Source of the DNA: Nannobrachium achirus
Lineage: Eukaryota > Chordata > Actinopteri > Myctophiformes > Myctophidae
Reading direction: 5' to 3'
Assembly: GCA_963921795.1 (NCBI GenBank)
Contig: OY997644.1
Span: forward strand, 2,720,254 to 2,784,253
DNA length: 64,000 nt
Shown here: one piece after another, positions 1,378 through 60,300 of the stretch
Numbering within the stretch: position 1 is the stretch's first letter
Layout of the letters: each line of letters starts with the position of its first letter
Notes under the pieces: model-generated
Told to the model about the DNA's origin: nothing
The model's database searches: none
Seen by the model: the letters and a program-made list of their open reading frames with translations, nothing else
Translations under genes and position numbers: made by a program

Positions 1378-1923
1378 CAGGGACGTGCTGGGCCCCTGAT
1401 TCAGCCCGGGAAAAAGAGTTGGAGAGGCCCTCATTGCGCGCTATAGAGAGAGATCTCTCTCTATAGCGCTGCTGCTACTCAAAGATTTGTGACAAAGTGG
1501 CAAGCCAGTGGGCCATTTACTGTACATGAGTTATATTTCGTCGTTGTCGGGTGGAAACCTTGTATGTCCAAAATCATTTTAGAAATGATTTAAACTAGTG
1601 AAAACAGCCAATCTACAAGCACACAACGCCTCGCGGTGCGAGGCGTTGTGTGCTTGTAGATCGGCTGTTTTCACTACTTTTGTGCAACGGCCTTGTATGA
1701 TGAAGCAGGGCTTTGCTTTGCGAAAAAAATTATAAATTTGAAACTTGGAGATACAAGGTTTCTGCAGGACAGTGACGATTTACTTTGTTGGCCGCCCAGC
1801 CCCCAAAATGGAACGAAGGCTGACATTTTTTTTTTCTTTTTTCTAATGGCCGGCCTGGACCGACAGGAATGAACCAGCCGTTCGGGAGTTGTCCCGCTTT
1901 TGCCAATGGCCAGCACGTCCCTG
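1378..1923. mobile_element. H1 hAT-like MITE (CAGGGACGTGCTGG termini) with nested family A
   Basis: Terminal inverted repeats CAGGGACGTGCTGG and CCAGCACGTCCCTG. The left half includes a CTATAGAGAGAGATCTCTCT palindrome. A family A element with its 81-bp hairpin occupies 1537-1780. No target duplication is visible here, but the two sister copies (7833 and 17560) have perfect 8-bp ones. Confidence 0.8.
1537..1780. mobile_element. Family A hairpin MITE, copy 1
   Basis: Ends resemble CGTCGTTGTCGGGTGGAAAC and its inverted partner (CAGTGACGAT). The central hairpin at 1596-1676 is two 39-nt arms around a 3-nt loop, with one mismatch near CCAATC. Confidence 0.8.
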
Positions 1924-1940
1924 AGTCACTACTGAGCATT

Positions 1941-2300: not shown

Positions 2301-2889
2301 ATGTTGTCTTAAGCCCCTTTTCGACTGCAGCTTTAGCACCACACCACACCACACCACGCCGCACCACATAAAAATATCTACATTTTCCATTACACAAAAG
2401 TACCCCTATTGGTAAGAAACAAATTGACCCTTTTAACTTTTGATTTATGTGGAAAAGGGGCTTTATTGGAGCCCTCAGTGTGTGAGCACTTATTTATTTT
2501 TCTTTACTTATATTAGTCGTCGCTCAGTCAGCACCTGCCCGACTTTGGTTGGTGATGCGCATGTCTGCTTTCTCTTTTTAAATGTGTGTTTTCAGAAATT
2601 TAACGACATAAGACCTCAATACTTGAACTTGACCTTTGGCTCGGTACTTGGTCTGCTCTTTTTGGTGTGGTTGCCCCTGCAGGCAACTAGACTATAGTAC
2701 TTGTCCGACTTTATTCCATCGATCCATCCAGCTTTCCCTTCCTAGATAAACCCTCGCTACTCCTCCCTCAGTATTGGTGGCACACACTTGGGCCATATCA
2801 AATGTCAAATGGACCGGCCCTCATCGGGAATCAATTCCTTGCATTTTGCTAAGAGATACGCTACATGGTTTCATTTATATAAATGTATT
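2301..2889. other. Intergenic DNA, no gene seen
   Basis: A short ACACC array (about 2340-2365) is the only structure noticed. Open frames here are short and unrecognised. Confidence 0.4.
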
Positions 2890-3530
2890 TGTTAATTGTC
2901 TCCACCAGCCGAAGGCAGGGGGAGAGTATGTTTTCGCCCCTGTCCGTCCGTCCGTCCGTCCGTCCGTGCGTGCGTGCATCTGTGTGTCCATCCGTCCTTC
3001 GAGTTTGTTAACAGCTAATCTCCGGCGCCGTTGGCCCGGTCGCTGCCAAAATGAGCACACACACTCCCTGGAAGCCAATTCAGAACCTCTGCCCCACATT
3101 TTTCAAATGGCCCTGTTCTAGTGCCACCATGAGGCCGATGTTTGCAAAACACATTTCTGTACACTACTCTTAAAGATTTTGTCTAAAAATCCTACAGATC
3201 TGTCTGATTTTCCATATTCCATCCTGATTGGCTAAGATTGGCTTCAAAGTTTGTAGGATTGGGCCGTTTTTAACAAAATGCCTCAAATCACAAACGCAGA
3301 GTGCAATTATCACGAAATCGCGCACACACGTTTCCACTAGGCCGATGAAAGAAATGCCACTTCAATTTTTTTTAAATCAGCCGCATGGTGGCGCTATAAC
3401 AGGCCGATTTGTGGTTTTACCTATAACTCCACCGATCAGTTTCAAACTTTGTAAGCACACTTTATAGCGCAACCAGGAGGCCGACTTATGTAAGACACAT
3501 TTTTAGCTGGTGGAAACCAGCTCTATGTTT
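2890..3530. repeat. Dispersed repeat with (CCGT)n start
   Basis: Begins near TCCACCAGCCGAAGGC, then (CCGT)n at about 2941-2967, then a body with ATGAGGCCGATG, GATTGGCTAAGATTGGC and GGTGGCGCTATAACAGG. Related segments occur at 6225-6530, 41462-42260, 43577-43845 and 63820-64000, so it is an abundant interspersed repeat of unknown class. Confidence 0.65.
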
Positions 3531-3651
3531 CGGTCATTTAGATGAGCTACCTCTTGGCTACCTATTGTTGATAGGCTGTCCATGTCACATGGTAACCAAG
3601 CTAGTGTCAGGATTGGATAATATAAGGGCCAATTGCAGGGCAGTTTACCCC

Positions 3652-7190: not shown

Positions 7191-7452
7191 TCGTCGTTGT
7201 CGGGTGGAAACCTTGTATGTCCAAGACCGTTCGTTTTGTATTTATCATTTTAAAAATGAACTAAACTAGTGAAAACAGCAGATCTACAAGCACACAACGC
7301 CTCGCACCGCGAGGCGTTGTGTGCTTGTAGATCTGCTGTTTTCACTACTTTTGTGCGACAGCCTTGTATGATGAAGCAGGGCTTTACTTGGTGAAAAAAC
7401 ATACAAACTTGAAACTTGGAGATACGAGGTTTCTGCCCGACAGTGACGACAT
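7191..7452. mobile_element. Family A hairpin MITE, copy 2 (solitary)
   Basis: TATCGTCGTTGTCGGGTGG at the left, GCCCGACAGTGACGAC at the right. The hairpin at 7267-7347 has 39-nt arms. Not inside another recognised element, with AT-rich TA-containing flanks on both sides. Confidence 0.8.
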
Positions 7453-7832: not shown

Positions 7833-8414
7833 CAGGGACATGCTGGGCCATTGATTCAGCCCGGGAAAAAGAGTTGGAGATGCCCTCATTGCGCGCTATA
7901 GAGAGAGATCTCTCTCTATAGCGCTGCTGCTACTCAAAGATTAGATTTGCCATTTCAGATCATGACAAGTGACAAGCCAGTGGGCCAATTACATGAGTTA
8001 TATTTTGTCGTTGTCGGGTGGAAACCTTGTATGTCCAAAACCGTTTGTTTTGTATTTATCATTTAAAAAATGATTTAAACTAGTGAAAACAGCCGATCTA
8101 CAAGCACACAACGCCTCGCGGTGCGAGGCGTTGTGTGCTTGTAGATCGGCTGTTTTCACTAGTTTTGTGCAATGGCCTTGTATGATGAAGCAGGACTTTG
8201 CTTTGCGAAAAAAAAATTACAAATTTGAAACTTGGAGATATGAGGTTTCTGCCCGACAGTGATGATTTACTTAGTTGGCCACCCAGCCCCCAAAATGGAA
8301 CGAAGGCCGACATTTTATTTTATATTTTTTTCCTAATGGCCGGCCTGGCCCGGCCGGGAATGAACCAGCCGTTCGGGAGTTGTCCCGCTTTTCCCAATGG
8401 CCAGCATGTCCCTG
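7833..8414. mobile_element. H1 hAT-like MITE with perfect 8-bp target duplication
   Basis: Ends CAGGGACATGCTGGG and CCAGCATGTCCCTG, flanked on both sides by GCCACTGC (7825-7832 and 8415-8422). Carries family A copy 3 (8005-8267). Confidence 0.88.
8005..8267. mobile_element. Family A hairpin MITE, copy 3
   Basis: Central hairpin 8081-8161 is a perfect 39-bp inverted repeat around a 3-nt loop. The complementarity extends to AAAC...GTTT outside. Confidence 0.85.
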
Positions 8415-10093: not shown

Positions 10094-11221
10094 ATATTAA
10101 CCCATTCAGAACGGGTACACATTATTGTGTATCATTATTTTATGCTTTAACTATTGAAAAAATAGCAGATATACAAGCTCACAGCGCGGCACCGAGTGCC
10201 GCGCTGCGAGCTTGTAGATCTGCTATTTTTTTTAAATCGTGAAAATTTGAATTTTGACCCGATTCTAGTGTCATTTGAATCCTTCTAAGGTTTTTTTTTT
10301 AAACCTATGTTTCTATGTCAGCAATCTGGCCAGCCATCGTCAAAGAAATGGTCCTTTTCACTTAAAGCTATACTGTGTAAGATGCTCAACTAGTGGTCAG
10401 TAGCCCTATAGCAAACCGCGGTCGCGTTCGCGTCTTTCGCCCGTTTTTCGTACCTTCACACCCCCGCGTCTGCCTCCACAACGCCGAGAGCTATCTTTAG
10501 AGGGGTCCCTGGTTCCTGTGCGTTCAGGCATTCCGGAGAAACGGACTACTTCACCCTGCCTGGTAGGCGAGATTACCTTTTGAGTAAAGAGACACACGGG
10601 CGACTACAAATATGGCGACCCCACTTCAAGATGCGCTGTGATTGGACGGTAGTGTACCATGTGTGCATGATCGGCGATGTGATTGGGCAACGTATACACA
10701 ACGTATACAGATGATGCAGATTACGTCATTTTGGCGCGAAATCCGGTCCACGGCCAGGATCATAGAAAACATATAAAGAGAAGGCTTCAGAAGCTGAAAA
10801 TAACGGAGTGGGTGTTCTAAAACTTTAGCGATTTAACAGTTAGGACAATTTTAAGATTTGTTTTATAAAAAAAGTTACATGGTACAACTTTAACTGGAGC
10901 TCAGTTAGTCTGTTCTTGAGAGACAACAATGTCAGTGGTTCTCAAACCTTTTCATGTGAAGGACCCTCAAAATGATATGTATTTGGCCACGGACCCCCAT
11001 CTCAAAATATTTAGATCCAGGGACCACTCAGAAGCAAAATTTGAGTTACAAACGTTCACTTTGAAAATACATATATCCAAAGATTTGCACACATTTTCAC
11101 GACTTTTTTAAAAATAGCAGATCTACAAGCTCGCAGCGCGGCACTCGGTGCCGCGCTGTGAGCTTGTATATCTGCTATTTTTCACTGGTTAAAGCATTCA
11201 ATAATTCTAGGCCTAAATTTT
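10094..11221. mobile_element. Composite family B element (TTAACCCATTCAG termini) with two hairpins
   Basis: The left end TTAACCCATTCAG and the decayed right end AGGCCTAAATTTTAA parallel the copy at 53165-53824. Hairpins at 10155-10230 and 11108-11183 share arms AAATAGCAGATCTACAAGCT with a GC-rich tip (GCGCGGCACTCGG). A 524-bp TTAA-flanked element sits between them. Confidence 0.7.
10362..10893. mobile_element. TTAA-inserting element proven by an empty site
   Basis: The element (10366-10889, AGCTATACTGTGTAAG ... GGTACAACT) is flanked by TTAA at 10362-10365 and 10890-10893. The paralogous sequence at 53480-53500 reads TTTTCACTTAACTGGAGCTC with a single TTAA and no insert. This shows a piggyBac-type TTAA duplication. 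No transposase is encoded. The interior is CpG-rich (CGGTCGCGTTCGCG). Confidence 0.85.
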
Positions 11222-13535: not shown

Positions 13536-13893
13536 CAGTGGTTCTCAACCTTCTCAGGCCGCGACCCCCAAAATAATCATATTTTAACTGGGGACCCCCA
13601 CCCTGACGCGTTGCGAGGCGTTGTGAGCATGTAGATCGTCTATTTTCACAATATCCGCCTCTAATATTTGACAATTTGGCCATTGTTTAATTTATCATTT
13701 TAGAGGTATTAAAAAGTCCCTAAATTGTCACTTTAGAAATGTGCAGATACCCTCTATACACTTAAACCTTATGTTGGTTTGTTTACTGTTGAGTGAGAAA
13801 ACAATGTTTCACAATAAGTTAATCATCCGGGGACCCCCCAAAATAGTTTGGGGACCCCCTTGTGGGTCCCGACCCACAGGTTGAGAACCACTG
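13536..13893. mobile_element. H2 hAT-like MITE with 8-bp target duplication (7/8)
   Basis: CAGTGGTTCTCAACC at the left and GGTTGAGAACCACTG at the right. Flanks TTCTAGAC (13528-13535) and CTCTAGAC (13894-13901). The hairpin is reduced to its right arm (about 13606-13650). Confidence 0.85.
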
Positions 13894-14788: not shown

Positions 14789-15348
14789 TAACCCATTTAG
14801 ACTGGGAACGCAATATGTTGTGCTTTAACTATTGAAAAATAGCAGATCTACGCTCAATCTTGTAGATCTGCTATTTAAAAAAAATCGTGAAGATTTGTGC
14901 AAGTCTTTTACTATTTTTGACTCGATTCTATCCACAACTTTCCAACATCCCATGGTGCATTGCGCAGAATGTGCAGGCAGCTTCCGGCGCCGCAGCCGAG
15001 AGTGATCTACAAGCTCACAACGGTTGCATCTGCGACGCGACGTGAGCTTGTATGTCTGCTGTTAACCGGAAGTGACCCGCAAATAATGCTACAGTAAATT
15101 CTCGTGGAAACAGGTGGATAAATGTCTTCTAAATCCTTCTAAATATTTAGTTCCAGTGACCCTCAGAAGCAAAATATTTGTTACAAATGTTTGCTTAAAA
15201 AAAATCATTTTTTAAAGTAGATTTGCACACATTTTCACAACTTTTCAAAAATAGCAGATCTACAAGCTCGCAGCACGGCACTCGGTGCCGCGCTGTGAGC
15301 TTGTATATCTGCTATTTTTCAATAGCTAAAGTATAAAATAATTAAGGC
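14789..15348. mobile_element. Family B composite with three hairpin remnants
   Basis: GTTAACCCATTTAGACTGGG at the left parallels 10094. Hairpins at 14833-14876, 15003-15063 and 15247-15320. The last is a nearly exact copy of 11108-11183. Confidence 0.6.
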
Positions 15349-15867: not shown

Positions 15868-18800
15868 ATGCTCAGCCTCATCAGATTACCACGTGTTTTC
15901 ACCATCAACCAAGTGCCCAAAGTAAGTTCTCTTCTTCTTCTTCGCTACATCTGTATGCTGACATTTAAACATGCTGACTCTGAGAGGTGAATCGATAGCG
16001 AAATATGGATAGATAGCGGCTAGATAATGGAAAGAAATGTTCTCAAAGCACGTTGATATGGCTATAATAATGTTGTTGATAATATAGTATTTGGGATATT
16101 TATTTCATAGAGAGTAATATGGGTAAGAATAAATAATAGAGAGAAATACAAAAATAAATCAAATCTGGAGGGAATAAGAAGAAGGGGAGGTCGAGGGCAA
16201 GGGGGGGAAAGGTGATCCATCAAAGAAAACAAATGATCTACATATTTACACTTAGTACCTGAGATAAGATGTAAAGCAGCAGATGTATACTGACTGTACT
16301 TGAGGACGTTAGTTAAGGCAGTGGTTCTCAACCTGTGGGTCGGGACCCCCCAGGGTGGTCCCCATTATTTTGGGGGATACCCAGAGGATTAACTTAATGT
16401 GCAACATTGTTTTCTCACTGAACAGTAAACAAACCAACTCAAGGTTTAAGTGTAGAGAGGGTATCTGCACATTTCTGAAGTGACAATTTAAGGACTTTTT
16501 AACACCTCCAAAATGACAGAAATTGTGAAAATAGCCGATCTACATGCATGTAGATTTGCTATTTTCACAATAGAACCGTGTTACACAAAATGTAATGCCT
16601 CAACAGTTACTCTTAGTGCTCGTCAGGGTGGGGGGTCCCCAGTTAAAATATGATTATTTTGGGGGTCGCTGCCTGAAAAGGTTGAGAACCACTGAGTTCA
16701 GGTGCTAGAAAAGAAAAGAAAAACAAAAAGTCCAAAATCAGTGCGTTGACTGTTGTGAGAACCTAACGGCGTGTTTTCTCGGGCCAGGTGTTCCATGAGG
16801 ACAGCATCATCTCTGGCTACCGCCACCCCTGCAGCTCAGCCACAGACTGCATCCTCAGCCTCTTCCAGATGACCAACGAGACGCTCAACATCTGGACTCA
16901 CTTCCTGCCTACCTGGTCAGTCAGTCTGTCACAAAGTTAAATGTCTTATCATTAGGGATGGGTATCGTCTGCGATACTTTTAATGGTATCGATTGCATGA
17001 CGTCGATACTATCGGGTATCGGTTCACGTAAAAACGAACAATACCTCGTTTCGATACTCTGGAACGCACCCCTGGCCGGTCGCATCTGTAACAGTTGGGC
17101 TACTGAGAGTTTAATTACTGCTTTAGTAGGCTACACTCGTTACTGTGGAAAATAGCCGACAATAGCCTATAATGTTTATTATGACGATTATCCAACGTCT
17201 ATACTCTCCGCTCCGCCACACTGTGATCATCATCATCACCTATGCTCTACCGCAGCAGCGGTAGAGAAGTTAAACTTAAATAAAAAGTATCGAAAAGGGT
17301 ATCGTATCGATTCCCAGGTATCAAAAAAGGTATCGTATCGATTCAAAGGTGAACGATACCCATCCCTACTTATCATCAGTCTGTTACAAAGTTAGCCTAA
17401 ATGTTTCATAATTACCGTTGCCGACGAGTGGAAGCCTTGTATGTCCAAAACGATTAGCCTACTTTTCAGAAAATGGAGGAGAAAAAGAACATGTGTTCCA
17501 ATGGATATTTAGGCACAAGCTCTTGTTGGTACTGTTCAATGGTTCAATATATACATCATCAGGGACGTGCTGGGCCCCTGATTCAGCCCGGGAAAAAGAG
17601 TTGGAGAGGCCCTCATTTATTTTATTTTTTTGTTATATTTCGTCGTTGTCGGGTGGAAACCTTGTACGTCCAAAACCGTTTGTTTTGTATTTATCATTTA
17701 AAAATGATTTAAACTAGTGAAAACAGCCGGTCTACAAGCACACAGCCGGTCTACAAGCACACAACGCCTCGCGGTGCGAGGCGTTGTGTGCTTGTAGATC
17801 TGCTGTTTTCACTACTTTTGTGCAACGGCCGTGTATGATGAAGCAGGGCTTTACTTTGCGATAGAACGTACAAATTTGAAACTTGGAGATACAAGGTTTC
17901 TGCCCGACAGTGACGATTTACTTTGTTGGCCGCACAGCCCCCAAAATGGAACGGAAAAATGAAGTCCGACATTTTTTTTCCCCTAATGGCCGGCCTGGAC
18001 TGGCCGTGAATGAACCGGCCGTGCGGGAGTTGTCCCGCTTTTCCCAATGGCCAGCACGTCCCTGTACATCATGTACAGTATACAGCAGGGGTCGGCAACC
18101 TTTTTGACATGAAGTGCCACGTTTTCATTTTCTTGATAGTCAGTGTGCCACAACACATCAAAATGTCATATTTCCAATTGATTTGGACAGGCTACAAAAT
18201 ACAACCTTTATTTTTGTCATTCCTCTTTAGAAATACTGTATATTATTTTACATTAGGATGTAGGCTTAATGATCATTAGACTCAAGCAATAACCCACTCT
18301 CCCAGACTGTCTCCCAGACTAGTCAGTCTCTCCCCAATCAAAGCTATAAGCTTGAATGAATGTAGAATGATATGCAGGCAGTAAGTTCCATATACCGGTA
18401 GATGTGTGGGCTCTCTCACACTTCTGCCAGTGTGCCAGTGATCACCTTCCATTGTGCCAATGTTGACACCCGTGCCTAAGGTTGCCTACCCCTGGTATAC
18501 AGTATGTGTTTTTCCTTTTCCCCCCAAAGAATAGCAGAGGTGTTGCGTAACGATGCAAGCTTGTAGATCATCTATTTTTGCTACTTTTGTGGTAGCTGGT
18601 ATGAGAAAGTAGGACATTAAAGGAGTAGTTCACCCCCAAAATGACTTTTTTTCAATTGATTACTCATGCCATGGAGAGTAGAGTTCAATAATATTTTTTG
18701 TTTTTTGTTGGTTTCATTGATTCCAGATGGTGACCCGTTTTGAAACGGGTCACCATCCGGAATCAATGGGGGTAAATTTACTCGAATCAAATTTTTGTCT

Positions 18801-21800
18801 TAGGAATGTGACAAAAACCAAAAAATATTATTGAACTCTACTCTCCATGGCATGAGTAATCAATAGAAAAAAAGTCATGTTGGGGGTGAACTACTCCTTT
18901 AATGGACATGAAACATAAAAAAGTTGAAATGTGGAGATGCAAGGCTTCTTCTGCATGTTTCTCAGTGTTTCCGTGATTGTTTGAGCATGGAGAATGAATG
19001 ATACCTAGACTTCTGCAGTCCATCATCCACGTGACATTGTGAGTCCCCTGCCTTCGTTTGTTAACGCAAGAGGAATTGGCTTTCAGTGTTGATGTGATCG
19101 CCTCATCTCAGTGCCTTAACTTTTTAAAGAAGTTGTTAGAATGATATTTGCTAGATGAGCTGCTGATGCGATACATTGCAATGCGAGTGTGGTCGGTCTA
19201 GACCAGTGGTTCTCAAAGTGGATACCAGGGACTTTGTGGGTTCCTTTAGGGCAAGGTTCCCCAATTAGTTTTCCCCAAGGGCCGAATTATGTCTAGGGTA
19301 CCAAGCCAAGGGCCACAGCATTGCAGGGGGCGACGGTGGCGTTCCCGCTACTCCAGCGACAGTTCAGATATCGTCGTTGTCGGGTGAAAATCTTGTATGT
19401 CCAAAACCGTTCGTTTTGAATTCATAATTTTTTTAATTATTTAAACTAGTGAAAACAGCCGACCTACAAGCACACAACGCCTCGCAACGCGAGGCGTTGT
19501 GTGCTTGTAGATCTACTGTTTTCACTACTTTTGTGAGACGGCCTTGTATGATTTGCAAAAGAACGTACACATTTGGAGATACAAGATTTCCACCCGACGA
19601 CGACGACGACGACGACGATATACTAGTGTTGTTGCTGCTCTTATACCACCATTATTACTGGGGGGTTGGTGTGGGCCAGACAGTAGCCCCCCGTGGGCCG
19701 CAAATGGCCCGCGGGCCGCCTATTGGGGAACCCTGCTTTAGGGGGTCTAAATTGACCCATGCAAGTCTGTACTTAAGAGCAGACCTTGAACTGTAAAAGT
19801 TTGAGAAACACTAGTCTAGCCAACACCAGCTCAGGACCCTCCACACCCTCCTGTCTGGCATCAGGGTCTTGGGCTCTGCAGTGTTGTTACTGTAGCTCCG
19901 CTGTCACACCGCAGTGCATCTGATTAGGTGGTGTACTTCTTGCCTTCCCTGGGCTTTGCCCTGGGTTGGCTCCCACAGTGTCAGTTTGCTTGCCACTAGT
20001 CCGACGCAGTGTCCTGCCAGCCTCATCCTTCTCTCTCTGACCTTGTCTGTGACCCATGGTTGGTCCCAGTGGAGGACCACATTTCTGATGAGTCCGTCCA
20101 TATGTGACACCTAGTGCCATTCGTAGCATTCTTGTGTAGATTCCATCCAGGGCCCTTTCCTGTTGTGCTGTGAGCTGATGAATTGGATTCTCACGTTATC
20201 TGTTGTGATTCAAGAAGGCCATAGGGGCTGTTAAGTCTGACATCATTTTGTAGGCAGAGGAGAACTTTTGGGGCCAAAAGGCCCCAGCGCCCGTGAATCT
20301 TTTTACTATTTTTACTATTTACTAATTCTTCTTCTCTTTGTCGTTGAAAGGAAAGTGGTAGAATTATACTTTAGTCGTTATTTTTGTCTCGGATCTGTTG
20401 AAATAGCGAGGGACAGATATTGATAATAAATCTGCTTGGAGGTCTGACTACAAAATGATGTCACGGCTTAAAAGCCCCATAGTTCTCAGTAGCAGGGGTC
20501 ATCAATATGTCCTTACATGGACATATGTGTCCGTGGCAAAGACTTGGCCTTGGGAAAATTTTGATTTTCTTTTTTACACACTGTTGATAATGATACTGAA
20601 TGTCAAGTCTCCAGGTTTTCTTCAGAATATGTATGACAATGACACTGATTTATTATGACACTATGGGCCCTATTTTATCCATGCCTTACCACTTATCGCT
20701 AAACTTCTTCGCCTTTTTTTTACTATTTTGAGAATCATTTTTAAATAGTTCATATAGCTGATCTACAAGCTCACAACATGTCGATGTAGATCAGCTAATT
20801 GAAATATTTTAGAGGTTTTTTCAAAATAGTAAAAAACGCATTCAAACACTTTATTTGTAAGGACCCCATAACTCTGCGAGTGTACAAATGGAACCAAATG
20901 GACCCATAAAGTCGCATTACAAGTGTGTGGGGGGCTGGGGGAGAGGGTAGGTAACAACAACAACTTTATTAGGAAAAAGAAGATTGGAAAGTGCGATAAC
21001 AGATAAAAGCAATAAAACACTAAAAACAAGAGTTCACACAAAGTCAACTGGGAAAGGCAATTGCGAACAGGTGGGTTTTCAGGGTGGTTTTGAAGGTAGG
21101 GAGGGGCGGCGTCTCTGATGCGTTTGGTTCCATTTGAACACTCTCAGAGTTACAGACCTGTTATGGGCATTCAGGGCTAGCTCTTTGTGTTTCTGGTAAT
21201 ATCATTGTCTGCATTTTGTATGCCCTGGCAAATCTATTTTATAAAAATGAAATCAAGTTTCTCCAACATGACGCATCATGTGGGAGAAACTTGAAAAGTT
21301 TGCATAATTAGGGTTCAGCGTCTGATCATGCTATACTCCAGCGATTCCTCTGCACTTGCGTAAGTTCTTTATACTGGCATTTCTCTGGCATGTAAATAAA
21401 CCAGTTTCTCATGTCCAAGCCACCTTGCATAATAATAACTCACCCCTGCGAAACAATGAAACACGTGCAGACCGGTCTGCACGTGTCATTATTATTATAA
21501 TGACCAAAAAAAGCAGTTACTGTATAGGACATCAAACAATCTTGGGCTAATATACTTCAACCTGCAGTTATATTAATGCAAGAAAAGTTAGACCAAGGCA
21601 CTCTTGAGGGACAGTTAAAAAGCCTTTATTTTAGGGCTAATGCATGGCAAGAATAAAAAATACATAATGCCTTCTTCAGGGTGACTAAACAAAAACTGAA
21701 CAAACTTGGCTTTTATAGGAAACAGGATGACATTACAAGCTCATAATGCAGGTTGACTGGGGAGGCCAAAACCACACCAAGACAAAATGTAAACTTTCAA

Positions 21801-45300: not shown

Positions 45301-48300
45301 GCTTGTTGCTACGCACAGGTCTGCTGTTCACTTATGGCGTGACGGGCAGCGGGAAGACCTTCACTATGACCGGGTACCCTGGGGAAGGTGGACTACTCCC
45401 TCGTGTCCTAGACATGCTGTTCAACAGCATTGGTACCTTGCAGGCCAAGAGATTTGTAAGGATTCAATTGTACTTTCTGTTGCTCTCAACTACTAGTAGT
45501 GAAGAAGAGATGACACTGGAGCAGGTTGGACAGTTGAAGCCTTTTTTTATTTGGGTGCATGTACAAAAAAGTGACCGCTTGGTCATTCTTTTTGTGCCAG
45601 CACCTAAATAGGCTGAGCTGTCCGTGCTGCTCCAGTCAGGGTTCCCACGGTCATGAAATTCCTGGAAATATTTTGAAATTAGAAAAATATTTTTCCAGTA
45701 CTGGAAAAGTTTTGGAATTGATCAAGGGTCCTGTCCTGGAAAAAATAACTATACATTGTCTTTCGTTATTGATTTTGTTAATACTGAAATGACAAATTAA
45801 ACTTTGGCCAAATTGTCAAATATTAGAGGCAGAAATTGTGAAAATAGCAGATCTACATGCTCACAACGCCTCGCAACGCGAGGCGTTGTGAGCATGTAGA
45901 TCGGCTATTTTCACAATAAAACCGTGTTATACAAAATTCCTCAACTTCAAATATGATTATTTCGGGGGTCACGGCCTGAAAAGGTTGAGAACCACTGGCA
46001 TACCCTACCTGTCTTTGGGCATTGCGCATAGGAGTAAGCGACTCATTATTGAGCTGAATTATTGTTATATAGTCCTGGAAATCGGGTTAAATATTCTGGA
46101 AAAGTTTTGGAAATTAATTGGTAAAGATGTGTGGGAACCCTGTCCAGTGTCAATCTCTTCTGCAACCGGACTAGCTGTATTAGGCTGAGGTGCGCCGGTA
46201 GAATCCCTTTGTGCACTTAGTGACGTTGATTGATTGTCCCCTCCCCTGTCAGGTGTTCAAGCCCGACGACAAAAACGGGATGGAGATCCAGAATCACGTC
46301 GATGCCCTCCTGGACAGGCAAAAGAGGGAGAGTCAACCACTGCCGCCCAAAACGCCAGCCTCAAGGTAAGCTACAGTTCAGCTTTAGACAGGATAGCGTA
46401 AGGAGAGAAGTCGCTGAGGGCAGAGAGGCGGAAAGACATGCAGCACCAATCAAACCGGGCCTCATTCATCAAGCTTGCCCAGACCATAAAGACGGTCGTA
46501 CGCAGAGACAACTGCAGTTTTCTGCATTTTTATGGCGTCACTCTGAATTGAGCATACAGCACTCTCAAATCTCTCACGTCAGTTCTCCAGGATGTGTGGT
46601 GTAGGCAAATCTTTTTCATCTTAGACATGAGTCGTATGCCTAAAAATATTTACAAGCAATTAAAATCGAGCGACAACAGCATAGAGTAATTTCAATTTTA
46701 TAAGGTGCTTAAGCATTCGCCCATTTAAAACGAGTGCTGTAACAGTCATTCAGATCTGGACAATTGCAGACCTGGCATGTAGCTGTATGTGTGACGTATA
46801 TATATTTGGTTCTGTGTTTCAGACAAAAGGCTGACCCAGAGTTTGCAGACATGATAAGCCCAGACGATGCGTGCAAATCCTCAAATGTGGACGAGGATAG
46901 CTGTTATGGCGTGTTCGTGTCGTACATTGAGATCTACAACAACTACATCTATGACCTCCTGGAAGAAACACCATATGACCCCATCAGACCAAAGTAAGCA
47001 CTGTTGTTTGGCATGTGTTGTGTTTTTCAAACACAAATTATGGCTTATAATTGTTCATTATTGCAGATACGCAAGAGTCCTAAGTTCAGCTCTTGTGCAC
47101 ATAATATAAGCTGACATACTTCATTGTGATGAATCCATATACCAGGGGTTCCCAAACTATTTTGTCTCAGGGCACCCCATAAATATATTTTTTTATCCGA
47201 GGCACCCCTACATTATATTTTTTAATCCGAGGCACCCCTATATTATAATTTTCACCCCCAGCACCTTGTATTTATAGCATATCATCATTGTCGGGTGGAA
47301 ACCTTATGTCCAAAACCGTCACACAACGCCTCGCGATGCGAGGCATTGTGTGCTTGTAGATCGGCTGTTTTCACTAGTTTTGTGTGACAGTCTTGTATGA
47401 TGAAGCAGGGCTTTACTTTACCAAAAGACGTACACATTTGAAACTTGGAGATACGAGGTTTCTGTCCGACAGTGATGATATTTTAGTGATTATGTTGCGA
47501 GGAAAACGTTGAGATAATAGACATTTTGGTTAGAAGTGACTGAAAATAACTTTACTAAAAATGATACTAAATATTTTTTCAAGTGTCGGCACCCTTGGAC
47601 TGCCGTCACGGCACCCCACCCACTTTGAAAACCCCTACGACGATCTTTCACACGAAAGCCTCACACAAGGGGTAGATGGATGTTTTGCTGTACATTCCTG
47701 GCATCATGGCACGCGGTTTAGCTAAATTCTGACATAATATTGCCCAGTGGCTGAATGTACAAATCCTGTTTTCAAACGGTTCTCAAATATTAAAGATTTC
47801 ACCCGATTGCTCAATTTCCCACCCCTTTTGAGAGTTGGTTTAAAGTTCTTTTCAATAGCATTTTTGTGTTGAAAAATCCTATTTTTACTAGGAGGCTCTG
47901 TGGAGGGACACCTGTAAGGAACCCTGAGTTCACGTATGTCACCAGTGAATACATTATGTATCCTAAACTCGCCACAAAAAGTTCGGAAATCTAACTTTGG
48001 TCGATTATATCTCCCCTTTAATAAACACAAATGGTATTGTGTTTTATATCATTTTTATCGTTGATTTGTCACCTTTACAACAAAGTACAGCTTGTAAGCA
48101 TCGGGCATTCGAGGCATGAGCTACACAGCCAAACGTGTGGGTAGCGCCGACCAGAACTTTGCCAAAATGGCTTGCAATATACTGTTCTGCTGGCATTTAC
48201 TCTCGTTTTGGGCTTCCCTGACACTGGGCTTAACATTAACAAAGTGTAAAAATGGCCAATATGTGTTGTTTTTTCTTTTCATTATTACTGTTGGAGAGTG

Positions 48301-51300
48301 CAATCATTCAATGCCCCAAGTAACACAGGTGAACACCAAAAGAACAGTATTGCAGGCCTGCCAGGCCATTTTGACCATTTTTGGAGGGGCGCTACCCACA
48401 CGTTTGGCTGTGTTGCTCATTCCATGAATGCCCGATCCTTACAAGCCATACCTCGTTGTAAAGGTGACAAATCAACGATAACAATGATATCAAAGACAAT
48501 ACCATTTGGCATACTTAAAGGGGGGATATAATGGACCGAATGTTGGCAAATTTTTTGGTCGGTGCTACCCACACGCTTGGCTGTGTAGCTCATGCCTCGA
48601 ATGCCTGATGCTTACAAGCTGTACCTCGTTGTAAAGGTGACAAATCAACGATAAAAATGTTATAAAACACAATACCATTTGGGTTTATTAAAGGGGAGAT
48701 ATAATCGACCAAAGTTAGATTTCCGAACTTTTTGTGGCGAGTGTAGTTGTAACTTGACTGTAGCTGACATCTCACTACTTGCTCTAATCGACTGTCTTCC
48801 ACGCTCCCCTATTCCTTTCATCCAACATCCTGTATGTGTTGCATAAATGAAGTAGCTTGATTAGCCCTTTGCTTATACTCTTCATAGATTAGACAAGCTA
48901 TTGTTCATGGCTGTTTGGATTGGAGACATGTATAGGCTTCCTTGAATGGCTCAAGTTTATGTGCAGTATCGGTGGAGGTTTTCAGTATGCATGTGTCTAT
49001 ACCAAATTGCTGACTGTTACTACAGCTATTCCTTTTTGTAACTTTGAGATTAGCTAACTTTAACCCATTAAAACCAGGAAAACGATAGTCATTTTGGCAT
49101 GGACTATTCAAAATGGCAGATATTCAAAATAGCAGATATACAAGCTTGAACATTTACAAATAAAAAAAAACGGTTGAGGACTACTGAATTATAAGGCATT
49201 TGTAGAATCGGCCTCATGTCTTAACTCATTGAGTGCCAATCCCGAACTAGTTCGGCTTTATTATCGCATCCCAGAGTGCCGATCCCGAACTAGTTCGGCT
49301 TTTTAATTAAAAAAAAATATATATATATATATATTTTTTTTTTTTCAAAGAATTTTTTTTTGTCCTCTGTTTACAGAGGACGATATTTGCAGATATTTGC
49401 TGATATTTACCATCCACTCCAATGCAATCCAGGATCTTTAGAGCTCATTTTCTCTGTTTCTTCTCCCATTCATTAGGTGTGCAATAGGGCTGTAATCTAG
49501 CCCTGTTTTAGGGATTCGAACTAAGGGGGGATTTTCCGAACGGACCATCAAACCTTCGATGGTTCGTTTGGTTCACCGAACCATCGAACGTACTGTACCT
49601 TTAACCAGCTAAAACAGTGTAGGAAATGTGTTAAATGCGCTGTTTTAACCATTGAAAACGTGTGGATGCGTGGCCGCATTAACACGTAGGCTAACACTTG
49701 GAAAATCCAACCCAATCGGAGAAAATGTTGCGCAGTTTGTTGACGAACAGGCTCAATGTATAGCGGAGTTGCACGGATGATGATTAGACTTGGTGATTGC
49801 GTCGGAGCGCGTTGCTTTCGGGCTGAACTGGTCACGATGTAACAACCCCAGAAATCGCATTATAGATCCTTTTGGGGGTTGCAATTAAATCCATCTTTGC
49901 TCATGCTTAGGAGAAAGGCTGTTTAATATTTGGGTGCGTGGGTGGGTGTTCGCTGTTCAGAGCACACACAAGTCTCTCTCTGCCCAGCTCAGAGTGCTGC
50001 CTCTCTCACTCTACTGTCTGTCATCAAGCGTGTGTCAGCGAGGCTGGTTCGCAGGAGCGGAATTGGAATTGGAGCGGAGGACGGTCCTTGATCGCTCCAA
50101 GCTGTTCTGGTGCATTTTATAACTACGGTCACCATTAACTGTTAGTGTTTACCGGTAGGCCGCCTAACTTATTTAGTATTTGGCTATCTCTACTACTGTG
50201 ATATTCTGAATAGGCCTATCACATTCTGATAATTATTTTTCGTGTAAAAAAAAAAGAAGAAAAAAAAAGAAAAAAACCTGAACCCATTAATTTCGAACTT
50301 CGAACGAACGTTCGAATCCCCAAAGGTTCGCTTGCAGCCCTAGTGTGCAAGGTTTAATCATGGCTAAGTTGACGAAAATCTAAAATGCTTGGTAGCCAAT
50401 AGCTAACTTCAAGCTAACTTCATCCTCTTTCTGTACATGCACAAAGGAAAGTGTTCTGGCAAGTCATGGCTCCAGGGCTTGGGCATGCATTACCAGCATA
50501 TCTCCATTATTCTCTGGTCACTGGGCACCCTCTAGTGGTGATAGGCTGGCATTAAATGAGTTTTAATGGGTTAAACATTATCATGACGTGTGAAATTTCT
50601 CTCAGCAAAGACACATTGTTGTCTACTGTTGTGTGCCTGTTCTAAAGCATATTAATAACGGTTTTCAGAGTGCCCCAGTCCAAAATTCTGCGTGAAGATC
50701 AGAGTCACAACATGTATGTGGCCGGCTGCACAGAGGTTGAGGTGAAGTCCACAGAAGAGGCTTTTGAAGTCTTCTGGAAGGGTGAGTCTCTATAACTAGT
50801 TGGCTAAATGTCGGGCAGAAACCTTGTTATCTCCAAGTTTCAAATGTGTACGTTTTTCACAAGGTAAAGCCCTGCTTCATCATACAAGGCCGTCGCACAA
50901 AGGTAGTGAAAACAGCAGATCTACAAGCACACAACGCCTCGCACCGCGAGGCGTTGTGTGCTTGTAGATCGGCTGTTTTCACTAGTTTAAATCATTTTTA
51001 AAATGATAAATGCAAAACGAACAGTTTTGGACATACAAGGTTTTCACCCGACAACGACGATATGTTAGTCATACAGGGCCATTACACTAAAAAATGCTCA
51101 CGGCATATTGTTTTCCCAGGTCAAAAGAAAAGAAGAATAGCCAATACTCAGCTGAACCGTGAGTCCAGTCGCTCCCACAGTGTCTTCACAGTGAAACTGG
51201 CACAGGCTCCGCTTGATGCTGACGGGGATCACATTCTCCAGGTGAACACACTTAGTAGGCAATCCCATTTAGCAACACGTTGAACAACACTTTGTTGCAC

Positions 51301-54300
51301 ATAAAATCTGGTTTTAATTGCGTTTGAGTATCTGGCACTCGTAATTCTAACTTGTTGCTGTTTTGTATTGCAGGATAAGAACCAGGTGAACGTGAGTCAG
51401 CTGTGTCTGGTGGACCTGGCTGGCAGTGAGCGCACCAGCAGGACCAGAGCCGAGGGCAATCGCCTCCGTGAAGCCGGTCAGTTCACTGTGTGCTACTGTG
51501 CTTTCTCTTGTGCAGACTTACCATGTATACAGTCAGGGTTCCCACGGTCATGAAATTCCTGGAAATATTTTGAAATTAGAAAAATATTTTTCCAGTACTG
51601 GAAAAGTTTTGGAATTTATCAAAGGTCCTGGACAAATTAAACATTGGCCAAATTGTCAAATATTAGAGGCAGAAATTGTGAAAATAGCAGATCTACATGC
51701 TCACAATGCCTCGCAGCACGAGGCATTGTGAGCATGTAGATCGGCTATTTTCACAATAGAACCGTGTTATACAAAATTCCTCAACTCGTAGTGCTCGTCA
51801 GGGTGAGGGGTCCCCAGTTCAAATATGCTTATTTCGGGGGTCACAGGCATGGCCTGAAAAGGTTGAGAACCACTGGCATACACTACCTGTCTTTGGGCAT
51901 TGCGCATAGGTGTAAGCGACCTGTTATTAAGCTGAATTATTGTTATATAGTCCTGGAAATTGGGTTAAATATTCTGGAAAAGTGTTGGAAAAGTTTTGGA
52001 AATTAATTTTTAAAAATGTGTGGGAACCCTGGAAGCTGAGTACCCCCTTCCCCTGACTATAGCGTTTCTGCTGTAATCAAAAGTCCAGTTCCAATGCCAA
52101 TATGTTCAAAAATAAAACGGCGTAATGCCAAATATACATTGATTTCTATTCAATAATAGTTGTACTAGTCGAGTTATTGATGTAATTTGATTTAACAATT
52201 TACAGATGAGCAGGTTCACGGCTGGGCTACACCAAAAAATGTGCGCATATGCGCGTACTGTCCGTGAAGACGCTCGCGTATGCGTAAACGCTCCAGGCTA
52301 CACCAAGGAGGGAGTATATGTGAGGAAGACCAGATAGTCTGTGTACAAAGCGCATACACATGCTTAAAAAATAGAACCGATCCTATTCTTAGGGAATGCG
52401 TATCCGTGGTTCGCGCTATCCGTACGCCTGGTGTAGCCGGCTGAATTGATAAACATTGGATCTATCCAAAACGCGCATACGCGTGCACAACCCGTATATG
52501 CACGCATACGCACTGACGCGCGCAAAACGGCTTGGTGTAGCCCGGCCGTCACAAAGTCTGTTAATGTTTTATCATTAACCATAACAGTAAAATACATATT
52601 CCCATTTTCTATTTTTTTTCTCCTGTACCCCTAGGGGTACACAATCTACACATACCCCCATTTGAGAGCTATACCCCCATTAGACTATAAAATAACAATG
52701 GATTTGCTGCATTACCTTGGGCTGTCCTTGCTTACTGTAAGTCGCTCTGGGTTGAGAGCGTCTGCTTAAATGCCTAAATTGTGATGTCCAAAACACAGGC
52801 AACATCAACCAGTCTCTGATGACCCTGCGCACGTGTATAGAGGTTCTGCGAGAGAACCAGATGTATGGGACAAATAAGGTCGGTGTTTGTATATTTTATA
52901 CTTATATATTACGCTCTCTTGGGTTTTTTCTCAGTAACGGTGGTTGGTTCTCACTGACTGATCCTCCTCTTTTGAGCAGATGGTGCCGTACAGAGACTCA
53001 AAAGTCACACATCTGTTCAAGAACTACTTTGACGGTGAAGGAAAGGTCCGGATGGTAGTGTGCGTGAACCCCAAAGCTGATGATTATGAAGAAACTATGG
53101 TAAGACTGGTTCACTTGCAGTGTAAAATACGGGTACACATTATTGTGTATCATTATTTTATGCTTTAACCCATTCAGGCCGGGAACACATTTTGCTGTTT
53201 GGGAGGGGCTTTACAGTACATGTACAGTATGTAGCAACATATTTGTTTTGTAGGCTAATTTCTGATTTAGCCCTATTCTATAGGTTAGGCCTAAATGGGT
53301 TAACTATTGAAAAAAATAGCAGATATTACAAGCTCACTGCGAGCTTGTAGATCTGCTATTTTTGAAAAATCGTGAAATTTAGAATTCTTTAAGTGTCTTT
53401 TGAATCCTTCTAAGGTTTTTTTGAAAAACCTATGTTTCCATGTCAGCAATCTGGCGAGCCATCATCAAAGAAAAGGTCCTTTTCACTTAACTGGAGCTCA
53501 GTTAGTCTGTTCTTGAGAGACTACTGTGTCATTGGTTCTCAAACCTTTTCATGTGAAGGACCCCCAAACTGATATTTATTTGGCCACGGACCCGCATCTC
53601 AAAATATCTAGTTCCAGGGACCACCCCGAAGCAAAATCTGAGTTACAAACGGTCGCTTTAAAAATACATATATTCAAAGATTTGCACACATTTTCACGAT
53701 TTTTTCAAAAAATAGCAGATCTACAAGCTCGCAGCGCGGCACTCGGTGCCGCGCTGTGAGCTTGTAGATCTGCTATTTTTCAATAGTTAAAGCATTCAAT
53801 AATCCCAGGCCTAAAATGGGTTAAAATCAACAAAAAGTTGTATATTCCTAAGAATGATTTGTCCGACAATTTGTTTGTCAGCAGTAATAAACATTGCCGT
53901 GGTTGTTTTGTGTGTTGCAGCTGGTCATGCGATTCGCAGAGATGACCCAGGAAGTGGAAGTGGCCCGGCCGGTAGACCGGCCAATCTGTGTCCTGGCGTC
54001 TGGACGCAGACACAGGAACCAGGCCTTCAGGGAAGAGCTGTCGCGCAACCTGGAGGAGCGTGGGGGACCCTGCAACCCTGGTAATGTTGCTTTTACAGAC
54101 TGTACAGGGTTCCCACGGTCATGAAATTCCTGGAAATATTTTGAAATTTGAAAAAAATATTTTTCCAGTACTGGAAATGTTTTGTAATTGATCAAGGGTC
54201 CTGGAAGGTCCTGGAAAAAATAGCTATGCATTGTCTTTGGTTATTGATTTTGTTAATACCTCTGAAATGACAAATTTAACATTGGCCATTGGGTGTTGCG

Positions 54301-57300
54301 CTCTGAAAATGGCAGAGCTACAAGCTCACAACACGTGGCGTTGAGACTTGAGAGCTTGTAGATCGGCTATTTTCAGCATGCAACCAAGTGTAAAATGAGG
54401 CATTACGATGCAATCAAGGCCCACCAAAACACATTTGTTGACATCAACTGTAGATTTAGTCGACTAAATATAATTTAGATTTTGGTCTGACTAAAACTAA
54501 ATGAAATTTGATTCAAAAGACTGACTAAAACTAAAATCTAAATTTGCTGAACATTCACTGTTAACAGATGACCCATCATTGCTGAGTCGGCTCTTTGAGA
54601 GCCTTCCTCCCATGCCTCCTTGTGAGCTGATGGACCCTACAGATGACCAGACTCTGCCCCGCCTCATAGAGGTCCTGGAGAAAAGGATTCGCATCCGACA
54701 AATGACGATGGAGCAATTAAACAACACCGGTAAGGATCAAGAGTGTTTTTCGTCACCGCGGTAGCCTGGTACCGTAGCTACAGTATAGTTTACTGTACAA
54801 CGCGTCAAACGCATCGATGGGCACACGTAGACATCAAAGAGATTGACGCGTTGACATAGGGCTGTCACAATTATTACATAATCGTCTAATCGTGATTATT
54901 TGACATTATCGCAATTATTTTGTCATAATCGTCATAATCGTGAATGTTGAAATGTCAGAAATAGTGGAAATAGCAGATCTACAAGCTTGCAACGCGTTGT
55001 GAGCTTGTAGATCGGCTATTTCCACTATCAATGTTATTTTTTAAGTAGTAAGTTGTCAAATATGTCAGTAATGTATTTGTATATTTAGGTTATGTGTCAT
55101 ATCTACCATATGCAACTTCAAAGCCTAAAAGCCAAACAGAAATGTAATTATCAACGACAAATACACAATTAAATCGTTAATCGCCAATTATTTGAGTGAC
55201 AATTAATCGTCATGTGAAATTTCATATGGTGACAGCCCTACGTTGACACCTCGTGGGCATCCGATGAGTTGATAAATAAAACAAAACTAAGATTCCTTAA
55301 ATTGGAAAACAAATGAAGTAGTGACAATAGCAGACAAATGGCGCAACGAGTTGTCAGTTTGTAGATCTGCTATTTTCACTAGTTTAGGTCCCAGGCGAAT
55401 GTCTAATTTCTCATTTGGGTCAGAGGCGAAAAGGTTTGCGAGCCACTCTAATATACATTCTAATAGTTTAAACGATTGCCTATGTGTTCACTTCATAGCC
55501 ATTCTAATAGTTTAAACGATTGCCTATGTGTTCACTTCATAGCAAACATGTTGAGGAACAGGCAGAACGACTTTGACAGCCTTGCTTCGACCAAGGATAA
55601 CCTCATCCACGACCAGAGGACCAAGCTGGAAGAGAAAGACAAAATCGTGTCAAATCAGAAGGCAGAGATGGAACGATTGGAGAAGAAATCCAAAATGCTG
55701 GAATACAAGGTTTGGCCTGCCATTACTACCTTTTCATAGTATGCCTTTTCTAAAAAGAAAATGGAGCGCAACATGTAGTGAACACTTTGAATGCCATACG
55801 TTTGCCATAACTATTTGCTGCCAAGGCTTTTTCCTATTGTATTTACCTGTTTCTCGGCGGCTCCGTGTACCCGTCCCGGCGCATGCACATTGTGTGCGCG
55901 AAGGTTTCCGATTCACGGCCACCGAAAGTCCTTTCTTTCACACAGAGAAGAAAAAAATGCAACCACGAAGATCCGTGTGTAAGTTATGGTCTGTAGAAAA
56001 TGGGCCCTTTTAACCAAACGTGTGATATGGGAAAAGAAGGCGAGATATATGCATTTCTCTGCAGCCAAAATGAACACAACTCAATGGGCGCCGGAAGTCA
56101 CCGGATGTAGTATTCCGCGAGGCATCATGGGAAATTGAGTCCCCTCACTCACTGCTGCCAGCGCAGTGGCTACCAGTTAACCATGGTAACCAGTTAATGC
56201 ATCAGCTAACGTGTTAACGGGGCGGCAGCACATAGATATAAAAAGCTAGATGCCTCATTGGCCACTGCAGTTCATTGGAGCGACGAGCAACAACTGGAGA
56301 GCGGACGTTCACAATTGCCGGAGACCACGCGGTCAGTCATGTGACTACTAGCCAATCACAGCGTGTATTTTTCGTGACTTATTAATCCATCCATTTCCTG
56401 ATGTTGCGCGGCTGCGCAGCTCAGCTGTTCTTACAGGCTGTGTACGTAAAGGCCCGCCCCACCTGCCTCTGATTGGCCAACAACTTCTGGTGTCTGTGAC
56501 GCACGTGGAAGTGGGAAACCACCGGTCGCCGAGTCCCACGATCTCACGCGTCAGAGCCAAAGGGGGCGTCTACCTTTCTATGTCTATGCGGCAGCACTTC
56601 ACGCGGGGGAATTGTTAACACATGTGGGAACGTGTGGCACTCCAGGTGTTAAAACATTTTTGATATATTTTTGTTCTTGTTTAAAACTTTGTAACGCTCC
56701 TCGTTCTTCAGATCGACATCCTGCAGAAGACCACCAACATCTACGAGGAGGACAAGCGCACGCTGACGCAGGAGTTGGAGACGCGCGAGCACAGGCTGCA
56801 GTCAGAGTTTGCGGAGAGGCGGCGCTTGGAGCAGCGCATGCAGGGCGTGGTCGTTGACACCAAGATGAAGTGGGAGAAGGAGTGTGTAAGTTGACAGACA
56901 TGGTGTATTTTTAACACCACATGGTTTGAATTAAAATATTTATCATAATTTGAGTTTTGGGGATGGGTGGCTCAAAATATTTCCTTATATTAAGGGTCTC
57001 AAACCTGTTTAGTTTGTAGGTTTCTATTCAGTTAACTTTGTTTTTTGCAACGCTTTGTGAGCTTGTAGATCTGCTATTTTCAGAGCGCAACCAAACAAAA
57101 TGAATTGTTCTCCACTAGTCCCTCCCTAACATTTTTAGCTTTTATTTGAACGGTCATCTCGGTTTTAGTCATCATAACGTTTTTTATTTAGTGAGAAAAG
57201 GTAGTCGACCAACATTTTTCGTCATGTTTGTAATCGAAATGAACACCGTTTGCGCGTTCCTCCCGTCTCACAGGACAGGAGAGTGAACGCCAAGCAGGTG

Positions 57301-60300
57301 GAGATGCAGAACAAACTGTGGGTCAAGGATGAGAAGTTGAAGCAGTTGAAGGCCATCGTGACGGAGGGCAGCGGCAGTTCAACCACCGATCAACTAGAAA
57401 CACCCAAGCGACCCGCCAGAGAGAGGGACCGCAGCGCCGCCCCACCACAGAAGAGGTCCGCCTCGCCATCAGCCACGCCCGTAAGTCATTTGTTGTCGTT
57501 TACACCGGTTCTATTGTCGTTGATGTTGAACGGTGTCTGTGCGTTAAGTAAATGTTGTAGGGTACAGGGATGTTGAACCGCCTTCAGCGTAGTGAGTACC
57601 TGGGACCATGGGTGATTGTTCAAGTGGGTCCCGACTCCCAGGGTAATTGAGTAGGTTTCTTCTTATCAACACTAGGGGTGGCAAGAATCTTGCGATGCAA
57701 TACATGATACTTGGGTCACGATGCAATAGTATCACGATATATTGCAAATCTTTGCGATACGATACTATTGCGATATATCAGCTTTAAAAGCCGAAGGCGC
57801 TGCTCTAATGGTGTTGCTTTCGTTGTTCGCAGCCATTTTCTCGAGAGACCTCACTCACTGAACGTGGGAAGGGGAAGTAGCTACTAAAGTACAGTGACAT
57901 CTAGAGGCAGCGGAGTGTCAGGACCGGACTTCTACCATTGGTTCCTATGCATGGGAACATATTTTATTTTCCTCCAAGTATCGCGATACTATGGCCTGAA
58001 GTATTGATACAGTATTGGCCAATAAACTATTGCGATGTATTGCCAATTGCCATATCGATTATATTGCCCACCCCTAATCGACACACAGCAATCTATCGAG
58101 TCAGGGTTTGTCTGTCACCGGTTAGCAAGGGAGAGCTTGTAATCTGCAAACGGCTGGCTTTTAAATCTTCAAATCTTGCAGGGCCAGTGACTGTTTAAGG
58201 TTAGAAAAGCCCAGACCCTCCTTAAATTAAAACCTTTAATTATTGCCACTTCCTTCCATTTGTATTCAATTCATTGATATCCCTATTCCTGTATCATGTC
58301 AGATCATCACGTTTCAGCCTGGTGTTAAAAGTTTTCTTTTGATTTCAGCACACACGTGTTATCACGGGAAAACGGTGTCACGTGTTATCACGGGAAAACG
58401 GTGTATGTCCCATGGACACATCCATACTGAGTCTTGTATTTTGTGTCAGATGCAGGATGTGTACCGTTCAACATCACTGAAGATATCTTTCATCTTTATT
58501 TGTGATTTGTCATTTGCATGAACCTCAGCGTCTTCTGCTTAATTCCATTTCACGTTTGTACTCTTTGAGGAAAACCCATGTATCTTCAATACTCGCCTAG
58601 GGCTGTCACGATTATGACATTTTACATGACGATTAATTTTCTCTCAAATAATTGCGATTAACGATTTAATTGTGTTTTTGTCGTTGACAATTACATTTCT
58701 GTTTGGCTTGTAGGCTTTGAAGTTGCACATGGCAGATATGACACATAACCTTAAATATACAATGAAATTACTGACATATTTGACAACTTTATACTTAAAA
58801 AAGAACATTGATAGTGGAAATAGCTCGCGATGCGACGCGTTGTGAGCTTGTAGATCTGCTATTTCCACTATCTTTGACTTTCTTAAAAATATATGAACAT
58901 TTTTCAACATGGAAACGATTATGACGATTATGAAAAATAATCACGATTAGACGATTATGTAATAATTGTGACAGCCCTATACTCGCCCCCCTCCCCTTCC
59001 TTCACTCACTTTTTAGGACATGCGCCAAACTCCTTTCTGCCAAAACCCAGCCAACCTTAGAGCAGGTCAGGAGCCCTACCCCACCTCCTGCTCCATCACC
59101 AGCAGCACCACCACCACCTCTACAAGTAGTCTCTCAGTAGCCTCTTGCATCTCTGACTGGGAGCAGAGGCTCCCTGTAGACCCCAGACAGGGTAGGCAGC
59201 CTGGAACGGTTACCCCCCAGTACGGAAGCAGCAGTGTTGGGCGCAGGAGAGGCCAGCGCTGGGCCACAGACGCTGAGACCCCTGGCGGCAGGCCCTATGG
59301 GTCAAACCTAGAGTCAGGCCCCAGGGTTAGTGAGTTTCAACTATTCCTGTAGAATGTCCACGTTAAGGCGTGTTCATGTAGTCTGCCGTCTGTAAAATGC
59401 ATCCGTAGTACACAAAGTAGATGCCTGTGCTCGTTCTGATTATGTTGGTGACATGTTGCATTCTGTCCACCATAGTTGCTTTTACAGGGTTCCCACGGTT
59501 ATGAAATTCCTGGAAATATTTTGAAATTAGACAAATATTTTTCCAGTACTGGAAAAGTTTCTGAATTGATCAAGGGTCCTGGAAGGTCCTGGAAAAAATA
59601 GCTATGCATTGTCTTAGGTTATTGATTTTGTTAATACCTCTGAAATGACAAATTAAACATTGGTCAAATTGTCAAATATTAGAGTCAGAAATTGTGAAAA
59701 TTATTTTCACAATAGAACCGTGTTATACAAAATTCCTCAACTCTTAGTGCTCGTCAGCGTGCCGGGTCCCCAGTTAAAACATGATTATTTCGGGGGTCAC
59801 GGCCTGAAAAGATTGAGAACCACTGGCATACACTACCTGTCTTTGGGCATTGCGCATAGGAGTAAGCGACTTGTTATTGAGCTGAATTATTGTTATATAG
59901 TCCTGGAAATTGGGTTAAATATTCTGGAAAAGTTTTGGAAATGAATTTGTAAAAATGTGTGGGAACCCTGTTGTAGTCTGCCGTCTGTAAAATGCATCCG
60001 TAGTACACAAAGTAGATGCCTGTGCTCGTTCTGATTATGTTGGTGACATGTTGCATTCTGTGACTGTCCACCATACACCAACACGGAGCTTTGTCATCAG
60101 CGCGTCATAGCTGGGGGCGGAGTCAAGCGTGGGGGAAATATTTAACAACCCCCATTAGTAGAATGGGGTTTTCTGTGTTTTCAAATCCGATTTTTTTTTT
60201 TATAGTATAGCGATGTTTTAATTAATTGCAATGTCTTACATTGATTCCTTGGTTGCCAATGGACAAAAAATGATGCATTTAAAATTAAACGGCTTTGGGA

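Follow-up and report, generated by a model that had tools for sequence, protein, structure and literature searches.

A palindromic module in the window and across the genome

The window, by which we mean the whole 64-kb stretch of DNA analysed, contains many copies of a nearly perfect DNA hairpin, some 80 bases long and here called the module, which lies inside many otherwise different short mobile elements. Its core reads AAAATAGC-N-GATCTACAAGCTCACAACGC-(5 nt), followed by a 3-nt loop and the reverse complement, and is longer than the original prediction had given. Outward of the GATC, conservation spans N-GCTATTTT, where every position except N and one A/G site is kept at 80-87%, and then drops abruptly (216 arms, window plus 200 kb). 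Some six further palindromic bases beyond the core vary by host. The outer stems, proposed to be specific to each host family, can therefore be read as shared core plus host-specific bases, because N-GCTATTTT is common to most hosts and host specificity holds for the next six or so nucleotides only. Family Y at 15004 is an exception, being one of a few copies in which the AAAATAGC part is missing. When four copies were folded as single-stranded DNA, all four formed a strong hairpin (-35 to -53 kcal/mol, z -10 to -17). The elements and modules of the window are listed below (strand "." throughout), with the kind of evidence in brackets for most of them.

7266..7348, module in family A, loop ACC (arm and pattern matches)
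7833..8414, hAT-like element G with CAGGGACATGCTGG ends and 8-bp TSD GCCACTGC, enclosing family A and module (TIR/TSD)
8080..8162, module in family A inside G, loop GGT (40-bp arms; single-strand DNA fold -53.1 kcal/mol, z -17.1)
10153..10235, module in family B (arm matches)
11105..11187, module in family B, surroundings in opposite orientation (arm matches)
13536..13893, H2 element with CAGTGGTTCTCAACC ends and TSD TTCTAGAC/CTCTAGAC, half of the module deleted (TIR/TSD)
15242..15324, module in family B (arm matches)
16319..16694, H2b element with TSD AGTTAAGG/AGTTCAGG, collapsed module near 16528-16565 (TIR/TSD)
17560..18064, second G element with TSD TACATCAT on either side, holding family A and module (TIR/TSD)
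19446..19528, module in family A, loop AAC (arm matches)
23785..23867, module in truncated family A, within a CAGGGTTCCCCAAT element with TSD AACTACGG (TIR/TSD)
24616..24698, module in family A, host on minus strand (arm matches)
28647..29174, H5 element with CAGTGTTG ends and 8-bp TSD GTGCCATA, module at 28871-28953 (TIR/TSD)
33619..33701, module in family A, loop ACC (arm matches)
45637..46142, F element with CAGGGTTCCCACGG ends and H2-type sequence, module at 45835-45917, no 8-bp TSD match seen
50903..50985, module in family A, host on minus strand (arm matches)
51534..52031, second F element with H2-type sequence, module at 51675-51757
53703..53785, module in family B (arm matches)
54300..54379, decayed module in a mosaic, left flank F/H2-like and right flank H5-like (by eye)
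54857..55240, TAGGGCTGTCAC element with 8-bp TSD CGTTGACA, shortened module at 54961-55028 (TIR/TSD)
58598..58979, TAGGGCTGTCAC element with 8-bp TSD TACTCGCC, module near 58837 with a single full arm (TIR/TSD)
59485..59970, F/H2 element, module deleted (residual GTGAAAATTATTTTCAC)

The hairpin series is a real and unusual repeat structure. With up to three mismatches the arm GATCTACAWGCWCACAACGC matches the window at 54 sites, where 100 shuffles predict 0.01, and looser patterns give 41 copies as a raw count, in agreement with the more than 40 copies that had been claimed for the 64 kb; all 18 loci named at that time were recovered, each within 16 nt of its position. At most two mismatches were allowed genome-wide, and 490,333 arm sites (245,704 + 244,629) lie in the 1.66-Gb genome, while a reversed-pattern control matched 4 (3 + 1). 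As one hairpin has two arms, this amounts to about 245,000 to 490,000 copies with at least one such arm. A sample of 25 arbitrary 10-kb stretches (250 kb, 4,370 bases of it N) holds 129 copies by the looser patterns, again a raw count, and arms stand on both strands, one each, in 71 of the 170 copies of window and sample together. By copies the window is slightly richer than the sample (0.64 versus 0.52 per kb), and its density of good arms (49 of the 54 sites at two mismatches or fewer) is about 2.6 times the genome mean.

Several tandem arrays were also observed. At locus L021, one-armed modules follow each other at 2343-3735 in a GGGGACCCC-rich unit, about 160-270 bp apart, so that the module lies inside a satellite-like array, and at 6544-6704 of the same locus four units of about 47 bp stand head-to-tail with a module arm at the start of each. 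The window itself has two tandem arrays, whose units of 133 and 130 bp are related to each other (41912-42264 and 43580-43825), a minisatellite of 15-bp and higher-order units (CTGGTGAATGCTAAC) at 41123-41407 and, just ahead of an F/H2 element, a stretch resembling by eye a kinesin motor exon (51380-51480).

Host elements, their ends and their flanks

MITEs of the hAT superfamily are short, gene-free elements whose TIRs start with CAGNG or TAGNG and which are flanked by 8-bp TSDs. Module-bearing elements with inverted ends and 8-bp TSDs fall into eight hAT-like terminus types. The module is held by the types H2 (ends CAGTGGTTCTCAACC), T (TAGGGCTGTCAC), H5 (CAGTGTTG), K (CAGGGGTCTTCAAC) and B (CAGGGGCGTCACA), all with 8-bp TSDs, and by three types that enclose family A, namely G (CAGGGACGTGCTGG), CAGGGTTCCCCAAT and CAGGGGTTCCCAAACT, the latter two in one copy each. 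The inverted ends of H2, T, H5, K, B and G are of the CAGNG/TAGNG kind, so that ends and TSDs match those of hAT MITEs; the difference is that the segment described here lies outside the termini and recurs in unlike families. TSDs agree at 7 or 8 of the 8 bases, and the H2 case was also aligned. Of 170 module copies, 17 lie inside an element with 16-nt TIRs of at least 13 matches and a TSD of at least 7 of 8, compared with 11 of 400 random points. Family A has CGTCGTTGTCGGG ends, and in the 23 rows inspected by eye it stands beside AT-rich direct repeats of about 4 bp (ATTT, AAAT, ATAT) with no 8-bp TSD. Since TSDs measure 8 bp in the hAT-like hosts and about 4 bp in A, at least two kinds of transposition seem to be involved.

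The notion of one module in hosts with different termini is upheld: ends and target duplications differ between hosts, and most flanks are unrelated. The CAGGGGTCGGC element, which had been listed as lacking the module, indeed contains no arm of it and is flanked by an 8-bp TSD (18086-18494). The central position ascribed to the module does not hold throughout: the nearer end of the 8-bp-TSD elements lies 82-262 bp away in elements of 229-582 bp, and the module is often off-centre.

Could all hosts descend from one palindromic MITE, whose flanks and termini diverged or were replaced while the hairpin alone was kept? We regard this as somewhat unlikely. Among 210 pairs of flanks, which are partly by-eye composites, 187 scored below 5 and have no similarity, and both the termini and the TSD lengths (8 bp versus about 4 bp) differ between hosts. 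The 23 pairs scoring at least 5 were tested, and six of them reached the floor of p = 0.0033, where about 0.7 would be expected: K/K2, J/S21, B/S21, J/B, A/X and T/H2b. These likenesses speak for a degree of kinship. J, B and S21 are alike over 35-45 nt beyond the stem, on one side; A resembles X over an AT-rich stretch and K resembles K2; T and H2b match over about 12 nt, which is suggestive only. By eye, the left flanks of A, H2b and T are similar over about 20 nt. A common ancestor would also suit the shared variation within A, which amounts to 5-7% in the arms and to 11-12% in the flanks, badly aligned rows included. The supposition that hosts have no homology outside the hairpin thus stands for most pairs and fails for J/B/S21 and perhaps for T/H2b, and because these flanks are partly common, the independent acquisitions are probably fewer than the hosts.

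Spread and loss of the module

A module of this abundance, with many unlike hosts and a sharp edge of conservation at AAAATAGC, invites the idea of a free, gene-less palindrome able to enter other elements or the centres of hairpins. We consider it very unlikely, and the proposal that a mobile palindrome targets the centres of MITEs is not sustained. Among 37 copies deduplicated by flank cluster, no direct-repeat signal rises above the rest when both module edges are scanned at the same offset (z at most 3.0 over 270 combinations of offset and length), the identity just outside the module is inverted rather than direct, and the module is often away from the centre of its host. Copies with little between the host halves could represent empty sites. 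Genome-wide, the gap between the halves of family A is module-sized in 6,810 cases and short in 182, and 167 H2 copies have a short gap. Inspection by eye of about 100 listed places for each family points to heterogeneous internal deletions: junctions are many and unlike, the commonest (5 of about 100 in A, 9 of about 100 in H2) lie at ACTA and CTATT microhomology, and no clear pre-insertion class appears among the places listed. Alternatively, this commonest A junction could be a clean empty site, which would favour insertion.

A candidate for an empty host, a module-free H2 relative with a perfect 8-bp TSD at locus L026, was rejected as an ancestor. Of six of its relatives examined, those at L034, L035, L036, L038 and L039 keep one arm and L037 keeps none, the TSD letters of the latter being those of L026. 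As five of the six retain an arm, loss by deletion explains the pattern more simply, and the H2 relatives without the module that were examined are probably deletion derivatives and not ancestors. On the question whether otherwise intact hosts ever lack the module, these relatives count as likely products of deletion. The five one-armed relatives are without matching 8-bp TSDs and have partly common flanks, and possibly belong to a larger amplified unit. A TTAA-ended ancestral element, suggested by TTAACCACTTNAACC outside K, J and B, was likewise discarded, given that by eye the copies again share sequence past the TTAA.

To the reading that we prefer we give an even chance of being correct: the module would be a passenger palindrome of non-autonomous DNA transposons, spread by nesting and by the joining of modules and kept palindromic by template switching. 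It would not move alone; it is copied when a carrier MITE transposes, as the 8-bp TSDs around module-bearing elements show. New hosts could be reached by two routes. A module-bearing MITE may insert into another MITE and the composite may then amplify; alternatively, two nearby modules may fuse and join ends that were previously separate. Any two modules could do so, because, whichever way two copies are oriented, each palindrome is a direct repeat of the other and an inverted one as well. Were the inner carrier to erode later, the hairpin would be the sole recognisable part left in common. Copies also lose the hairpin, through the heterogeneous internal deletion seen genome-wide.

Nesting is clearest for the hAT-like element G, within which the family A copies at 8095 and 17729 sit. 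G encloses family A in all five copies found in the window and the loci scanned; three of these have perfect TSDs of 8 bp that differ from each other, one matches at 7 of 8 and one has no match. A MITE-in-MITE composite carrying the module has thus transposed as a unit, since G holds A in every copy and the perfect TSDs differ. Nesting is less evident where H2-type sequence lies in F. F ends surround such sequence in four of four copies found. Module arms are present in two of them and missing from the other two; a single H2 end can be recognised, and no 8-bp TSD match was seen. We set an exchange of ends below nesting as an explanation of the F/H2 copies. The assignment of the copies at 45850 and 51690 to H2 consequently holds for the H2-type sequence around them, whereas their position between CAGGGTTCCCACGG ends, with one H2 end recognisable, places them in F.

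Module-to-module fusion is illustrated by family B, whose elements can carry two modules (e.g., L013 6982-7544). The L009 element (6817-7045; 229 bp, own TSD CATGAGGT) corresponds to the two-module element at L016 (4807-5223) minus the segment between the modules, with about 95% identity on either side of its single module. From this alignment L009 appears to be a fusion product; it is one element, and the one-module form could be the older. The repeated capture of the hairpin that had been envisaged is thus supported as transfer within nested carriers and in one module fusion, and not for the first entry into A, H2, H5, T and K, around whose modules no old carrier ends are visible.

Maintenance of the palindrome and its significance

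How the arms stay matched can be approached through covariation. Across 16 copies chosen for this purpose, changes on both sides were counted in 54 cells; shuffling gave 22.5 +/- 3.8 (0 of 500 shuffles) and a control with slid partners 4-15, and both the covariation score and the number of paired cells exceeded every one of the 500 shuffles. Two of the five measures are weak (changed pairs 15 versus 10.8, reached in 10 of 500; further pair types 33 versus 31.7, reached in 190 of 500). Host families contribute several of the 16 copies each, and the shuffle control is inflated by related copies. Within copies the picture is different at the -1 site, which is unpaired in 9 of the 16 and varies independently between arms (A/A 30, mixed A/C 21, C/C 8, other 11; n = 70). 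Because of this independence, the arms seem to have been matched at the founding of each family and not since, with no continuing arm-to-arm correction.

The loop gives a further hint. Of 9,557 copies of family A in host orientation, the first 100 have the loop ACC 64 times and GGT 15 times, followed by GCC (6), ATC (4), GAT (4), ACT (3), ATG (2), GGC (1) and TGT (1). The two commonest loops are reverse complements that differ at all three bases, and in this set 20 loops lie three substitutions from ACC, more than lie at a distance of one (13) or two (3). The finding of a loop in both orientations comes from family A genome-wide. In one study, template switching in yeast leads to arm homogenisation and spacer inversion at inverted repeats (PMC8604942), and another attributes matched stems in RNA genes to template switching (PMC8794818). 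Covariation between families and loop inversion in family A fit an inverted repeat maintained in this manner, in which the polymerase switches template at the hairpin during replication, keeping the arms matched and flipping the loop, as judged from the footprint. The likeness lies in arm homogenisation and spacer inversion; the cases in these sources are yeast genes and RNA genes, whereas here a dispersed repeat with hundreds of thousands of arms is concerned.

Whether the hairpin helps its carriers is a separate matter. It might be kept as an amplification aid, for instance by providing a binding site or, once folded, by uncovering transposon ends, which we think unlikely. Mean copy depth within 150 nt of a module is 3.67 versus 0.73 elsewhere (modules masked; the zone covers 15% of 314 kb), among the 15 repeat clusters of four or more segments nine mostly carry the module, including the five largest (two of the nine being the halves of family A), and the strong folding of all four copies would agree with such a role. 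This is correlation only, however, and a module hitch-hiking in successful MITEs would look alike. Private changes in family A are not rarer in the arms (4.5-5.9%) than in the flanks (2.8-5.5%), among copies chosen by flank in which three badly aligned rows were kept, raising the arm figures. Stronger conservation of the arms after insertion, suggested by copies chosen by arm, was not borne out by those chosen by flank.

At its gathering scores Rfam had no match in the window, a tRNA search gave no known match, and two arm words had 0 matches in papers, and a search of open-licence papers found no description of a palindrome shared among MITEs. Angel and other fish foldback elements are short repeats that fold into hairpins; set beside them by description only, the palindrome here is an internal part and not the whole element. 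The CORE, V and Deu domains are central domains shared among SINE families. The likeness to such domains (PMC3272025) is one internal segment common to otherwise different non-autonomous elements. SINE families are retroelements, while here DNA-transposon MITEs and a palindrome are concerned.

Altogether, these DNA transposons, with a common palindrome whose arms number in the hundreds of thousands, can be placed beside the SINE precedent of shared internal segments. They offer a natural record of template switching at a single hairpin, and whether hairpins aid the amplification or recombination of MITEs can be tested on them; repeat libraries that group families by similarity could be misled by the shared module. 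We speculate, as an improbable extension, that the hairpin serves as a portable, orientation-independent joint through which unrelated MITEs exchange halves, favouring its carriers. If this were true, one palindrome would shape much of the repeat landscape in a vertebrate-sized genome.
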